Assembly (NCBI RefSeq): GCF_004320535.1
Contig: NZ_SIHY01000001.1
Location: 2,108,001 to 2,172,000, forward strand
From: Arthrobacter sp. S41
Lineage (GTDB): Bacteria > Actinomycetota > Actinomycetes > Actinomycetales > Micrococcaceae
Direction: 5' to 3'
DNA length: 64,000 nt
Shown here: positions 14,953 through 62,319 of the stretch, in pieces
Layout: each line of letters begins with the position of its first letter
Position numbering within the stretch: position 1 is the first letter of the stretch
Position numbers and translations under genes: made by a program
The notes under the pieces: generated by a model
Told to the model about the DNA's origin: nothing
The model's input: only the letters and a program-made list of their open reading frames with translations
The model's database searches: none

Positions 14953-15690
14953 ATGCGAATCCTCATTTTGAATGTGAACACCACTGCGTCCATGACCAAG
15001 GCCATCGGCGACTCGGCTCGGCAGGTAGCTTCACCGGGCACAGAAATTGTTGAGCTGACTCCGGACTTCGGCGCGGACTCCTGCGAAGGCAACTTTGAAA
15101 GCTACCTTGCTGCCATTGCCGTCATGGACAAAGTGGTTCGATATCCAGAACCTTTTGATGCGGTGATTCAGGCCGGCTATGGCGAACATGGACGCGAAGG
15201 GCTGCAAGAACTCCTTGATGTCCCCGTTGTAGACATCACCGAGGCAGCGGCCTCGACAGCTCAATTCCTGGGCCACAAGTATTCGGTGGTTACCACCTTG
15301 GATCGTGCGGTGCCGCTGATTGAAGACCGGCTGAAGCTCGCTGGTCTCACGGATCGCCTCGCCTCGGTGCGCGCCAGCGGACTGGGTGTTCTTGAACTGG
15401 AATCTGACCCACAGCGCGCGGTAGCTGCGATCGTTGAGCAGTCTCGAATCGCAGTGGAAAAGGACAAGGCTGAAGTAATCTGTCTTGGTTGTGGTGGCAT
15501 GGCCGAGCTGGAGGAACAAGTGCGGCAGGCTACCGGTGTGCCGATTGTTGACGGGGTCCGCGCTGCGGTGACTATCGCGGATTCCTTGGTGCGAATGGGG
15601 CTGAACACCTCGAAGGTTCGCACCTACGCTCCCCCACGTCCCAAGGTCCTGACCGGGTGGCCAATCACTGCCAATTCCCTTACCAAGTGA
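14953..15690 (+). CDS. Asp/Glu/hydantoin racemase family protein, putative allantoin racemase
   Basis: The 245-residue protein matches the hydantoin/allantoin racemase family: ILNVNTTASMT start, NFESYLA, VVDITEAAA and a C-terminal VICLGCGGM. Cys180 of LGCGGM corresponds to the second catalytic cysteine. At the position of the first catalytic cysteine, where family members show an ACFxDPG-type segment, this protein has AGYGEHG (residues 74-80) with no cysteine. A two-base racemase mechanism is therefore doubtful and the enzyme may isomerise or open a ring differently. ATG 14953 is chosen because AGGAG lies 4 nt upstream; the frame is open further back inside the permease gene. It is co-transcribed with the permease. 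Confidence 0.82.
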   Translation: MRILILNVNTTASMTKAIGDSARQVASPGTEIVELTPDFGADSCEGNFESYLAAIAVMDKVVRYPEPFDAVIQAGYGEHGREGLQELLDVPVVDITEAAASTAQFLGHKYSVVTTLDRAVPLIEDRLKLAGLTDRLASVRASGLGVLELESDPQRAVAAIVEQSRIAVEKDKAEVICLGCGGMAELEEQVRQATGVPIVDGVRAAVTIADSLVRMGLNTSKVRTYAPPRPKVLTGWPITANSLTK

Positions 15691-15741
15691 ATGCGCAGGA
15701 GCATCCCAGTTGGTGCACAGACAGCGCGTTTAGAGTTGTAA

Positions 15742-15809
15742 GTACCTCATGAAGGTGCGAGTGATGACATAAGAAAACCCCGATGCTTCGGCATCGGGGT
15801 TTCCTTTTT
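15742..15809 (+). ncRNA. Copy A of a five-member short-RNA-like element
   Basis: The core at 15743-15767 begins TACCTCAT and ends GAGTGATGA; it lacks one T present in the other four copies. A -10-like TAGAGT is at 15731-15736. The core is followed by a 12-bp perfect stem (AAACCCCGATGC, loop TTCG) and a T-rich tail, so the expected RNA is about 68 nt. ACCT and AGGT within the core can form a small first hairpin. The core contains AAGGTG 6 nt before ATG, giving here only ATG ACA TAA. It also ends the permease-racemase transcript. Confidence 0.6.
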
Positions 15810-15820
15810 GCGTCAGCGGA

Positions 15821-32875: not shown

Positions 32876-32957
32876 CTATTCCTCACCCCGTCTCAACGCA
32901 CTGCAACCGCGAAGCTTGTGCTCAGCCCGAGCATAGAAAGCTTGGGTAACGTAGTAA

Positions 32958-33027
32958 CTACCTCATTGAAGGTGCGAGTGATGATCGTTGAAATCCCCGT
33001 CGGCTTAGCCGACGGGGATTTCACTTT
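32958..33027 (+). ncRNA. Copy B of the five-member short-RNA-like element
   Basis: The 26-nt core is at 32959-32984, with a -10-like TAACGT at 32947-32952, exactly 12 nt upstream as in the other copies. It is followed by a perfect 15-bp stem (GAAATCCCCGTCGGC, loop TTA) and ACTTT. The frame from ATG 32981 would give a short peptide whose sequence is only the hairpin read as codons. It lies 83 nt after the siderophore-binding protein gene. Confidence 0.6.
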
Positions 33028-33062
33028 AACTTCTTGTCCTGAGATCTAAGCCGACATCTAAC

Positions 33063-33827
33063 TCAGCTTTCCAGCCAACTCACTTCGCCGGTCTGCAGAT
33101 CATAAACGGCGCTAACCACGCGGGTCCGCTTCTCTTGCACTGCCTTGCGAATAATGACCGAGCGTCCCACCAGCTGCTGCGCAACGGCTATCGCATTAGC
33201 TTTGACCACCTTGTTCACTGCATCAGCATCTGATCCTGAAACTTTTTCCTTGCGGGCCACTGGCGCAATTTGCTCCGCGAAGTCATCCATCTCTCCGGGC
33301 AGTTCAGGGTTATCGGCATTCTTTTCCATGGCTTGAAGAGTTCCGGTCACCGCGCCACAGGCCGTATGTCCGAGAATCACCAACAGGGGAACCGAGTAAG
33401 GTTCGGAGACGGCAAACTCCATGCTGCCCACCAAGGTGTCATCAAGGACTGCGCCTGCGGTTCTGGTGACAAAGAGGTCACCGATTCCTTGATCAAAAAG
33501 CAGCTCCGGGGTAACGCGCGAGTCGACGCACCCGTGGATCAGGGCGAAAGGGCTTTGATGCTCGGCCTGCTCGTCGCGCCGTTCTTCATCTTGGTTGGGG
33601 TGCTGAAGCTCGTTCGAAAGATAGCGCTGATTGCCTTCCTTCAGCGCTTTGAGTACCTCGTCCGGTGTCTTGGGTGTTTCAGCATGAGCGACAGGAGCGG
33701 TTTCGGTAGCCTCTGGTGTCGAGCAGGCGTTCAGAGAGGCCAGTGCGATCAGTCCGGTGGCGCCAGATAAGAGCTTTCGCCGGCTAGTTACATGGGCAGT
33801 GACGACGGTGTCAGTGGGTTGTGGCAT
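33063..33827 (-). CDS. Exported beta-carbonic anhydrase, probable Tat lipoprotein
   Basis: The 254-residue protein has a beta-class zinc site: Cys100, Asp102 and Arg104 in HGCVDSR, then His154 and Cys157 in GHTACGA. The N-terminus has a twin-arginine motif TSRRKLL (15-20), a hydrophobic core and lipobox LNAC (Cys35). It therefore appears to be exported folded and anchored outside the cell, an unusual location for a beta-carbonic anhydrase. It would speed CO2/bicarbonate exchange at the surface. It stands alone and is convergent with copy B of the short element. Confidence 0.9.
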   Translation of the reverse strand: MPQPTDTVVTAHVTSRRKLLSGATGLIALASLNACSTPEATETAPVAHAETPKTPDEVLKALKEGNQRYLSNELQHPNQDEERRDEQAEHQSPFALIHGCVDSRVTPELLFDQGIGDLFVTRTAGAVLDDTLVGSMEFAVSEPYSVPLLVILGHTACGAVTGTLQAMEKNADNPELPGEMDDFAEQIAPVARKEKVSGSDADAVNKVVKANAIAVAQQLVGRSVIIRKAVQEKRTRVVSAVYDLQTGEVSWLES

Positions 33828-60196: not shown

Positions 60197-60351
60197 GCTT
60201 CCCAGCTTAGGTAGCTTGCACGCGCGAGACTATGGGCTGGTGACCGTATTTCTAGCCCATCAAACGCATCGGCTATGTGCACGGTGCCCAATCATCGCCA
60301 ATGCGAAGCTGAGCCAAAGGATCGGCACAGAAAGCGTCGTTATTGTAGAGA

Positions 60352-60423
60352 TTACCTCATTGAAGGTGCGAGTGATGATCGTAAAAGTTCCCGTTGGATA
60401 TTGCCCAACGGGAACTTTTCTTT
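60352..60423 (+). ncRNA. Copy C of the five-member short-RNA-like element
   Basis: The core (60353-60378) is identical to copies B, D and E. A -10-like TATTGT is at 60341-60346. The stem AAAAGTTCCCGTTGG (60383-60397) pairs perfectly with CCAACGGGAACTTTT (60405-60419), followed by CTTT. Confidence 0.6.
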
Positions 60424-60453
60424 AAGCTCTTTCCCCCGATACATGGGCACTGC

Positions 60454-60693
60454 GCAGTGCATGCTTATTGCATCCACAGAGTGCACCCCTAGAGTTACAA
60501 GTACCTCATTGAAGGTGCGAGTGATGACGAAGAACTGGCCCTGTCGGTCTTGCGACAGGGCCAATTCTTTGCCCTCTGCCGACAACAAAGCGGCAGCCGA
60601 CAACACCCGAAGACAATGTGCAGTCCATGCTTATTCGACGCACAGAGAGCACCCCTAGAGTAGTAAGTACCTCATTGAAGGTGCGAGTGATGA
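60454..60693 (+). repeat. Direct repeat of 74 nt holding copies D and E
   Basis: Bases 60454-60527 and 60620-60693 align without gaps at an offset of 166. They agree at about 65 of 74 positions, and the last 30 are identical. The unit covers the -35/-10 region and the core but not the hairpins. This indicates a duplication in which promoter and core were kept and the terminators diverged or were replaced. Confidence 0.75.
60501..60570 (+). ncRNA. Copy D of the five-member short-RNA-like element
   Basis: The core is at 60502-60527. TAGAGT at 60490-60495 and TTGCAT at 60468-60473 form a possible -10/-35 pair with a 16-nt spacer. The hairpin arms at 60532-60546 and 60553-60567 contain one mismatch and are followed by TTTG. 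Confidence 0.62.
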
Positions 60694-60745
60694 TCGAGAA
60701 GCCCCAGCTCTCCGGAGTATTCCGGTGGCTGGGGCTTCAAATTTA
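60667..60745 (+). ncRNA. Copy E of the five-member short-RNA-like element
   Basis: The core is at 60668-60693. TAGAGT at 60656-60661 and TTCGAC at 60634-60639 form the possible -10/-35 pair. GAAGCCCCAGC (60698-60708) pairs with GCTGGGGCTTC (60728-60738) around a loop that itself can form CCGG/CCGG, followed by AAATTTAAG. Confidence 0.6.
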
Positions 60746-60828
60746 AGTAGTAGCCTCGCCCGGTGCGGTAACTTAGATAGGTCCCCACACGATTTATGCC
60801 GTGGGACGCCTAAGTGAATGGAGTCCCG

Positions 60829-62319
60829 GTGAGCACCGCGATCGCACAACTGACCCCGCTGCAACGCCAGTCGGTATGGCGCACCCTAAAATCCCCTCGG
60901 TTACTCAAAACCGAACTGCTCGCCGGTCTGGTGGTGTCCTTAGCCCTGATCCCCGAGGTCATCGCATTCACCGTGATCGCCGGGGTCGATCCGCGCGTGG
61001 GCATCTTTGCTTCCTTCACCATGTCCATAGTCATCGCCTTCACCGGCGGACGTCCGGCGATGATTTCTGCCGCCGCCGGAGCGGTGGCACTGGTGGTTGC
61101 CCCGCTGGTTCGCACCTATGGGGTGGAATATCTCTTTGCCACGGTGGTTTTGGCCGGAGTCATCCAGGTGATACTCGCCTTGTTGGGCGTGGCCAAACTG
61201 CTACGTTTTATCCCCCGGCAGGTGATGATCGGCTTTGTTAATGGACTGGCCATCTCCATTTTCTGGGCACAGATGCCCGAGCTACGTAACGTGCCCTGGC
61301 AAGTGTATCCGCTAGTGATTCTCGGGGTAGCCATCGTCTGCTTCTTCCCTAAAATCACCAAGGCGGTGCCAGCTCCCCTGATCGCTATTGTGGTGCTCAC
61401 CGCGATCACCATCTTCGCGAAAATTGTTGTGCCTACCGTGGGAGATAAGGGAGAGCTACCCGATTCGCTGCCACTCTTACATCTTCCTGGGGTGCCGCTG
61501 AACGCCGAAACCTTGAAGATCATCGCCCCCTACGCGATTGCCGTGGCCTTTGTGGGCCTGCTCGAATCCTTACTCACCGCCAAGCTGGTAGATGACATCA
61601 CCGACACCCCGTCAAGCAAAACCCGCGAGTCTTGGGCGCAGGGCACGGCGAACATCATCACCGGATTCTTCGGCGGGATCTGCGGTTGCGCGATGATCGG
61701 CCAGACCATGGTGGGCGTTAAGGTCTCCGGCGGACGCACCCGCATCTCCACCGCCTTTGCCGGCATTTTCATGCTGCTGCTAGCGGTGCTGCTCGGCGAC
61801 ATCGTCGCGCAGATTCCGATGGCCGCGCTGGTTGCGGTGATGATCGTGGTCTCGGCGACCACCTTTGACTGGCACAGCATCAAACCCAGCACGCTGAAGC
61901 TGATGCCCAAGAGCGAAACCTTTGTCATGACCATCACCGTGGTGCTCACCGTGGCCACCCACAATCTGGCTATCGGCGTTGGTGTGGGCATCTTGTCCGC
62001 GATGGTGCTCTTTGCCAACCGGGTGGCCCATATGGTCGCGGTGACCAGGACCGTCACCGACGATCAGGTGTTGTACGAGGTCAACGGTGAACTGTTCTTC
62101 GCTTCCTCCAACGACCTGTACACCCAGTTCCATTACGCCGAAGATCCTGCGCAGATCGTCATTGACCTCAGCTCGTCGCACCTCTGGGATGCTTCGACCA
62201 TCGCGGCGATGGACTCGATCCGCACCAAGTACCAGAACTATGGCAAAACCGTGGAAATTCGTGGGCTTAATGAGGCCAGCCAAAAGATGCAGGACCGCCT
62301 CGGCGGGAAACTAGGCTAG
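60829..62319 (+). CDS. SulP-family inorganic anion transporter with STAS domain
   Basis: The 496-residue product has a membrane domain of about 10-12 helices (LLKTELLAGLVVSLALIPEVIAFTVIAGVDPRVGIFASF near the start, GGRPAMISAAAGAVALV, GFVNGLAISIFWAQMPEL) and a C-terminal STAS domain (VNGELFFASSNDLYTQFHYAEDPAQIVIDLSSSHLWDASTIAAMDSI). GTG 60829 is chosen because GGAG lies 6 nt upstream; the frame opens at 60814. SulP proteins carry sulfate, bicarbonate or dicarboxylates. The cargo here is unknown. Three short-RNA-like elements lie directly upstream. Confidence 0.9.
   Translation: MSTAIAQLTPLQRQSVWRTLKSPRLLKTELLAGLVVSLALIPEVIAFTVIAGVDPRVGIFASFTMSIVIAFTGGRPAMISAAAGAVALVVAPLVRTYGVEYLFATVVLAGVIQVILALLGVAKLLRFIPRQVMIGFVNGLAISIFWAQMPELRNVPWQVYPLVILGVAIVCFFPKITKAVPAPLIAIVVLTAITIFAKIVVPTVGDKGELPDSLPLLHLPGVPLNAETLKIIAPYAIAVAFVGLLESLLTAKLVDDITDTPSSKTRESWAQGTANIITGFFGGICGCAMIGQTMVGVKVSGGRTRISTAFAGIFMLLLAVLLGDIVAQIPMAALVAVMIVVSATTFDWHSIKPSTLKLMPKSETFVMTITVVLTVATHNLAIGVGVGILSAMVLFANRVAHMVAVTRTVTDDQVLYEVNGELFFASSNDLYTQFHYAEDPAQIVIDLSSSHLWDASTIAAMDSIRTKYQNYGKTVEIRGLNEASQKMQDRLGGKLG

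Follow-up and report, generated by a model that had tools for sequence, protein, structure and literature searches.

Five predicted small RNA elements in the window

The window, that is, the whole 64,000-nucleotide stretch of Arthrobacter sp. S41 analysed here, contains five short elements on its + strand, with cores at 15743, 32959, 60353, 60502, and 60668 as originally predicted. Each has a direct-repeat array, a TANNNT -10 box that starts 12 nt ahead of the core, the core itself, and a terminator (Table 1). The 26-nt core TACCTCATTGAAGGTGCGAGTGATGA is exact in copies 2 to 5, while that of copy 1 has one T fewer. A stem of 12-18 bp with a T-rich tail follows each core, and the sequences of these terminators differ among copies. 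In all these respects the original prediction is borne out. The predicted RNAs of the window are 70-74 nt long. With up to three mismatches allowed, the core search gives four matches in the window and none in 100 dinucleotide shuffles.

Table 1. Positions of the repeat arrays, -10 boxes, predicted small RNAs, and proposed seed in the window
Feature	Position	Strand	Remarks
Copy 1 direct-repeat array	15683..15720	+	CCAAG, CGCAG, CCCAG, CACAG; 11-bp spacing; proposed PhoP-type activator site
Copy 1 -10 box	15731..15736	+	TAGAGT
Copy 1 small RNA	15743..15813	+	Core minus one T; 5' end ~15743-15744; terminator stem 15771-15806
Copy 2 direct-repeat array	32899..32936	+	CACTG, CGAAG, CTCAG, CATAG; 11-bp spacing
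Copy 2 -10 box	32947..32952	+	TAACGT
Copy 2 small RNA	32959..33032	+	Terminator stem 32987-33025
Copy 3 direct-repeat array	60293..60330	+	CATCG, CGAAG, CAAAG, CACAG
Copy 3 -10 box	60341..60346	+	TATTGT
Copy 3 small RNA	60353..60425	+	Terminator stem 60384-60418
Copy 4 direct-repeat array	60442..60479	+	CATGG, CGCAG, CTTAT, CACAG
Copy 4 -10 box	60490..60495	+	TAGAGT
Copy 4 small RNA	60502..60574	+	Terminator stem 60532-60567
Copy 5 direct-repeat array	60608..60645	+	CGAAG, TGCAG, CTTAT, CACAG
Copy 5 -10 box	60656..60661	+	TAGAGT
Copy 5 small RNA	60668..60742	+	Terminator stem 60701-60735
Proposed seed GGTGCGAGTGA, copy 5	60680..60690	+	In the other copies starts at 15754, 32971, 60365, 60514

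Copies of the RNA adjoin a carbonic anhydrase gene (33066-33827) and a SulP-type permease gene (60814-62316). Copy 5 ends about 70 nt upstream of the co-directional SulP permease gene, which is the position expected of a cis-acting leader or attenuator of the following gene. The gene next to copies 1 and 2 is convergent, however, and in many Arthrobacter-type loci the RNA is flanked by two genes on the opposite strand, one proC-like and the other often ppx/GppA-like. Neighbouring genes also shift between genera while the core remains constant. It is very improbable that the elements act in cis, and a riboswitch or attenuator was rejected on the basis of gene orientation.

Anatomy of the RNA

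Although the core is conserved as originally predicted, its most constant part is not UACCUC at the 5' end but the right arm of a small hairpin together with the single strand that follows, GGUGCGAGUGA. Among 100 aligned matches of the family model, which was built from copies picked by their right arm, GGTGCGAGTGA is found in all 100 and ACCTC in 82. Similarly, GGTGCGAGTGAT is invariant in 66 aligned copies, these having been selected for a near-exact right arm. One copy found through its promoter (L169) carries GGTGTGAGTGA in place of the constant element.

The ACCT/AGGT hairpin that had been proposed fits the alignment, with 99.1% of cells paired in the 66 copies and left-arm changes that nearly always keep the pair. 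There is no double compensatory change among them, so covariation does not prove the hairpin, and the shuffle control was uninformative.

In the window's genus the terminator comes directly after the core, and a script recovers a stem and T-run in 67 of 67 copies. Outside the genus a longer form of the RNA is common, and the script finds a terminator in 107 of 134 copies. The loop also differs: a CCCC run is present in 67 of the 134 copies outside the genus versus none of the 67 inside, and a looser C-rich loop in 75 and 8, respectively, neither copy set being fully non-redundant.

Several near-identical copies exist within 53 kb of this genome, as might also be seen for a repeated mobile or small-ORF element (a repeat family or leader peptide) with no role as a regulatory RNA. 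Distances from the GTG in the core to a stop codon are scattered, however, and in 66 of 201 copies the stretch read contains no stop at all. A small protein was rejected, as there is no conserved reading frame. When copy 4 was used as a query, no match was obtained in plasmid or phage collections, and the mobile element was rejected. Flanks beyond the promoter and RNA are unrelated, whereas many genera retain the promoter, the seed, and a terminator. The probability of such an element is close to negligible.

Copies elsewhere and distribution

The original prediction suggested searching the whole genome and related Micrococcaceae, the latter with a covariance model. A search of the window's own genome for a 23-nt core, allowing up to three mismatches, gives four places, all inside the window, and the family model gives five matches. 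A sixth, diverged member, TACCTTCTTAAGGTGCGAGTGAC, is located on the same contig near 1634.6 kb (G000:C1, 1634550-1634650; L236, ~1475-1590). It surfaced through a search for the complement of the seed. Each of five other genomes of the genus that were searched has one equivalent of this member (L217, L232, L234, L243, and L258). The terminator loop of this diverged subfamily contains ACCUCCUU, which we take to resemble the 3' end of 16S rRNA.

The 26-nt core with up to three mismatches is found in 47 of 295 Micrococcaceae genomes, while the reversed core has no match in any of the 295. Exact cores are present in named Glutamicibacter and Arthrobacter records. The covariance model (R1) covers the -10 box, hairpin, and core, and was built from 66 copies chosen because their right arm had no more than one mismatch. 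R1 matches 259 of the 295 genomes and 31 of 32 genera, with 1-9 matches per positive genome; genus g6 is the only one without a match among the matches listed. Note that R1 searches spanning more than 40 genomes use stricter filters, by which weak matches are lost. In an order-wide search 31 of 396 genomes match R1. All 31 are Micrococcaceae, and the other families of the order have no match among the 396 genomes sampled. If the genome list runs by kinship, this corresponds to 31 of 35 genomes inside the family versus 0 of 361 outside.

Some Arthrobacter-type genomes have two tandem copies ~200-260 nt apart (L005, L007, L020, L024, L027, and L060). In most of these pairs the second copy has a diverged 5' arm, and long terminators with C-rich loops are found.

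Promoter and proposed regulator

Ahead of the -10 box, a further ~50 bp is conserved in the form of an array of 11-bp repeats, a feature missing from the original prediction. Four CAG repeats are spaced by 11 bp, and the last ends 10 bp before the -10 box. In an alignment anchored on the -10 box (141 non-redundant out of 198 copies; an earlier alignment had 85 out of 139), an exact CAG is found at -48, -37, -26, and -15 in 67, 57, 59, and 43 copies, respectively, but at any other offset scanned in at most 8 of the 141. TTGACA-like -35 boxes show no excess among the 141 aligned copies. The repeats of the window's own copies are weaker than the family consensus.

The recognition sequence reported for M. 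tuberculosis PhoP consists of TCACAGC repeats separated by 4 bp (TCACAGC-N4-TCACAGC), and a similar pattern is reported for E. coli PhoB and Streptomyces PhoP (PMC4832192). The family consensus carries this direct repeat, while single copies are degenerate. The promoter layout is that of a PhoP/PhoB-type activator site, and the array is described here as a candidate site of this type.

A search with the promoter pattern alone gives at least 68 places in 52 of 100 genomes. Thirty loci were examined out of the 68 places listed, and 23 of them have the RNA core downstream. Two of the remaining seven (L175 and L176, both genus g14) lie just upstream of a response-regulator gene, seemingly the same one, suggesting autoregulation. 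Among solved structures, the L175 regulator is closest to M. tuberculosis PhoP (E 1.8e-72, versus 2.9e-43 for MtrA and 5.7e-41 for RegX3). The window's genome encodes at least two PhoP-like regulators (E 2.3e-65 and 6.8e-85 to PhoP).

The same small RNA mechanism could have its repeats read by another OmpR-family regulator, such as MtrA or RegX3, or by several. A search for the Trans_reg_C family gives 12 matches in the genome, 11 of them over the cut-off, and some of these proteins we take, by eye, to be MtrA- or RegX3-like. Related regulators are also reported to use similarly spaced repeats (PMC4832192). On the other hand, the repeat unit TTCNCAG of the family fits the PhoP sequence given in the same source (PMC4832192), and the regulator gene behind the promoter pattern in the two g14 genomes is PhoP-like in the one tested. 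Control by a regulator other than a PhoP relative is rather unlikely, though it deserves some weight.

Candidate targets in the genus

The complement of the seed is UCACUCGCAC. Six genomes of the genus together contain 67 places with its 10-mer TCACTCGCAC, namely 29 R1 copies, 6 members of the diverged subfamily, and 32 non-RNA sites. By an automatic rule, 16 of the 32 are at translation starts, versus 0 of 40 sites for the reversed 10-mer. The rule requires a start codon between -25 and +50 from the site, a ribosome-binding-like sequence, and a coding-like frame; it was drawn up after the test sites had been viewed and before the control sites were read. The Fisher test gives 2e-7 on 16 of 33 versus 0 of 40, where the 33 includes the diverged RNA L258. 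Three further start sites (L227, L250, and L254) were added by eye, the control sites being scored by the rule alone. TCACTCGCAC has no overall excess (32 non-RNA sites versus 40 reversed), and the bias is in position only.

The 16 scored start sites represent 8 gene families, and six of them belong to one MFS gene that has the site in its coding sequence at codons 5-8. Transport proteins account for 7 of ten distinct target genes according to Pfam (ABC_sub_bind, Sugar_tr/MFS, Na_Ala_symp, SBP_bac_8, OpuAC, Peripla_BP_4, and AA_permease). The other three encode a LacI regulator, an Excalibur protein, and a secreted protein without a Pfam match. The secreted-protein target was pointed to by a search of the own genome for a 16-nt complement with 3 mismatches, which is too noisy by itself (38 places beyond the 5 window copies versus 23 for the reversed word).

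When paired with 15 target regions, the 25-nt core gives predicted duplexes of -22.4 to -30.3 kcal/mol, the chosen seed being included by construction. Left-arm pairing downstream of the seed does not reach significance when all start sites are taken together (p 0.12); for leader sites it reaches p 0.003, a value confounded by ribosome-binding sites. The left arm may pair with a nearby ribosome-binding site.

These results bear on the earlier idea that UACCUC, being complementary to ribosome-binding sites, controls the translation of many mRNAs. In its strong form, the RNAs would be mainly anti-Shine-Dalgarno molecules that act through 5' UACCUC and an often C-rich terminator loop, as 6C is reported to do, and GGUGCGAGUGA would be structural or protein-binding. 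The frequency of ACCTC in the model matches, the CCCC run in half of the copies outside the window's genus, ACCUCCUU in the loop of one subfamily, and the better left-arm pairing at leader-site targets would fit this proposal. However, the left arm changes in a pair-keeping way while the right arm does not change, all 67 copies of the window's genus are without the CCCC run (the looser C-rich loop occurring in the 8 noted above), and both the start-site bias and the conservation of sites belong to the seed complement. A predominantly anti-Shine-Dalgarno action is improbable. UACCUC was rejected as the sole seed, since its arm varies in a way that keeps the pairs and its extra pairing is not significant over all start sites; with GGUGCGAGUGA near-constant and matched by sites in mRNAs, the part played by UACCUC is at best secondary.

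Conservation of target sites and other genera

Of 18 genomes of the genus, 7 have an ortholog of the secreted protein. In 6 of the 7 ortholog leaders, eight bases of the site, CACTCGCA, are unchanged. In these six, conservation is 22% over the 40 nt upstream, 21% over the 19 nt from the site to the ATG, and 31% over the first 12 codons. The site is broken in the seventh ortholog, and the paralog L215 has no site. The leaders (L188 and L208-L213) are arranged in the order of putative 5' hairpin, conserved CACTCGCA, and ribosome-binding site.

Ten genomes of ten other genera contain 90 TCACTCGCAC places, of which 14 already-known RNA copies were set aside and 76 examined. Thirty-seven of the 76 are RNA copies, and start sites make up 7 of the remaining 39. 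The genes concerned encode a sugar-type solute-binding protein, CstA, subtilase (in two genera), PaaA/PaaC, COX15/CtaA, and one protein without a match. Six g10 (Arthrobacter-type) genomes have 19 places, including 8 RNA copies, and 1 start site among the other 11. Start sites are few in these genera, so the generality of the targets is weaker outside the genus. In the subtilase genes of two genera (L353 and L367), TCACTCGCAC corresponds to codons for HSHR just past the start.

Proposed mechanism

Trans-acting small RNAs are characterized by a promoter and terminator of their own, independent of neighbouring genes, and by a conserved seed with complementary sites at the starts of targets. The elements have the former as judged from sequence, and the latter in the genus, more weakly outside. 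Conservation, the promoter, the lack of a reading frame or an Rfam match, shifting neighbours, and the start sites all support the original view of a small RNA family whose members share a functional 5' end and whose terminators are interchangeable. What computation shows is the family itself, its promoter layout, a seed that stays constant, and target sites that are biased in position and conserved; from the sequences we infer transcription, the identity of the regulator, and repression rather than activation.

The elements are thus best read, with good though not full confidence, as sibling trans-acting small RNAs that occur throughout the Micrococcaceae, are controlled by a PhoP-type regulator, pair close to the ribosome-binding sites of genes for uptake, and probably repress these genes. 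The tandem 11-bp repeats would stand in for the -35 element and be bound by a response regulator of the OmpR/PhoB family, most likely one related to PhoP of mycobacteria, which would activate the TANNNT promoter. The RNA made would be ~70 nt long (longer in Arthrobacter-type genera) and start at or beside ACCUC. Its 5' end would form a hairpin of 4-5 bp, whose right arm and following single strand would serve as the seed GGUGCGAGUGA. The pairing partner of the seed would be UCACUCGCAC(C), placed near the ribosome-binding site or within the opening codons of mRNAs that encode ABC solute-binding proteins, permeases, and secreted proteins. Translation would most likely be blocked, because the sites are located 20-40 nt ahead of the start or within the first codons. 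The terminator would need only to end and protect the RNA, which would explain why its sequence drifts.

To our knowledge, few Actinobacteria beyond mycobacteria and Streptomyces have a small RNA for which a seed, a regulator, and a target set have been proposed. The Micrococcaceae family brings these three proposals together and is present in 31 of the 32 genera sampled. Two questions can thereby be put to a direct test: how actinobacterial small RNAs find their targets without Hfq, and what PhoP-like systems control beyond mycobacteria. The family also offers a natural series, since its seed stays fixed while most other parts vary.

Comparison with known systems

The original prediction assigned the elements to no named family, and comparison with the 4227 families of Rfam 15 agrees, with no match in the window above the gathering score. 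Across 14 loci, the one match above the gathering score is an unrelated TPP riboswitch. At E up to 1, four loci give two matches far under the cut-off; one, EcpR1 (29.4 of 60 bits, E 0.62), overlaps the L027 copy. The GcvB family has no gathering-score match in the window or the 14 loci, and the 6C model has no match in the window or the loci scanned. The TPP riboswitch (L036, 2096-2203, - strand) is located beside RNA copies and near a gene that looks thiC-like by eye. Among the open-licence PMC papers listed, neither a prior description nor the exact 14-nt string GGTGCGAGTGATGA was found.

6C is an actinobacterial RNA with two C-containing stem-loops, reported to bind several mRNAs through its C-rich loops without a chaperone (PMC8628891). 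The same source describes searches for Hfq, ProQ, and CsrA in M. tuberculosis as unsuccessful (PMC8628891). Unlike 6C / B11, the family described here has GGUGCGAGUGA as its main proposed seed, and the CCCC loop does not occur in the genus copies. The terminator loop in many other genera resembles 6C, in principle only.

Sibling small RNAs with several near-identical copies and one shared seed are represented by Qrr, LhrC, and csRNA. NgncR_162/163 are also siblings (PMC13104608). The Micrococcaceae RNAs resemble all of these in their near-identical copies and shared seed but differ in taxa and promoters, and there is no known sequence relation.

Mcr7 of Mycobacterium tuberculosis is a PhoP-dependent small RNA of ~350 nt, proposed to cover the start of tatC mRNA and predicted to be confined to the M. 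tuberculosis complex (PMC4038636). The likeness is in the type of regulator proposed; here, in contrast, there are many short copies, a family-wide distribution, and many proposed targets.

In GcvB of enterobacteria, a single seed is aimed at the translation-start regions of many transport genes. Its reported regulon comprises more than 50 genes that serve the uptake and biosynthesis of amino acids (PMC11878033). The Micrococcaceae RNA shares this type of target, with one seed at the starts of transport genes, but it is multicopy, ~70 nt long in this genus, actinobacterial, placed under another activator, and without an Rfam match. It belongs to neither the GcvB nor the Mcr7 family. The chances are about even that it is an undescribed multicopy family, spread through the Micrococcaceae, that is functionally equivalent to GcvB, in which one PhoP-type system would use up to nine siblings to shut uptake and secretion genes through one constant seed and without a known chaperone, with freely changing terminators and, in many genera, a second, C-rich pairing loop.
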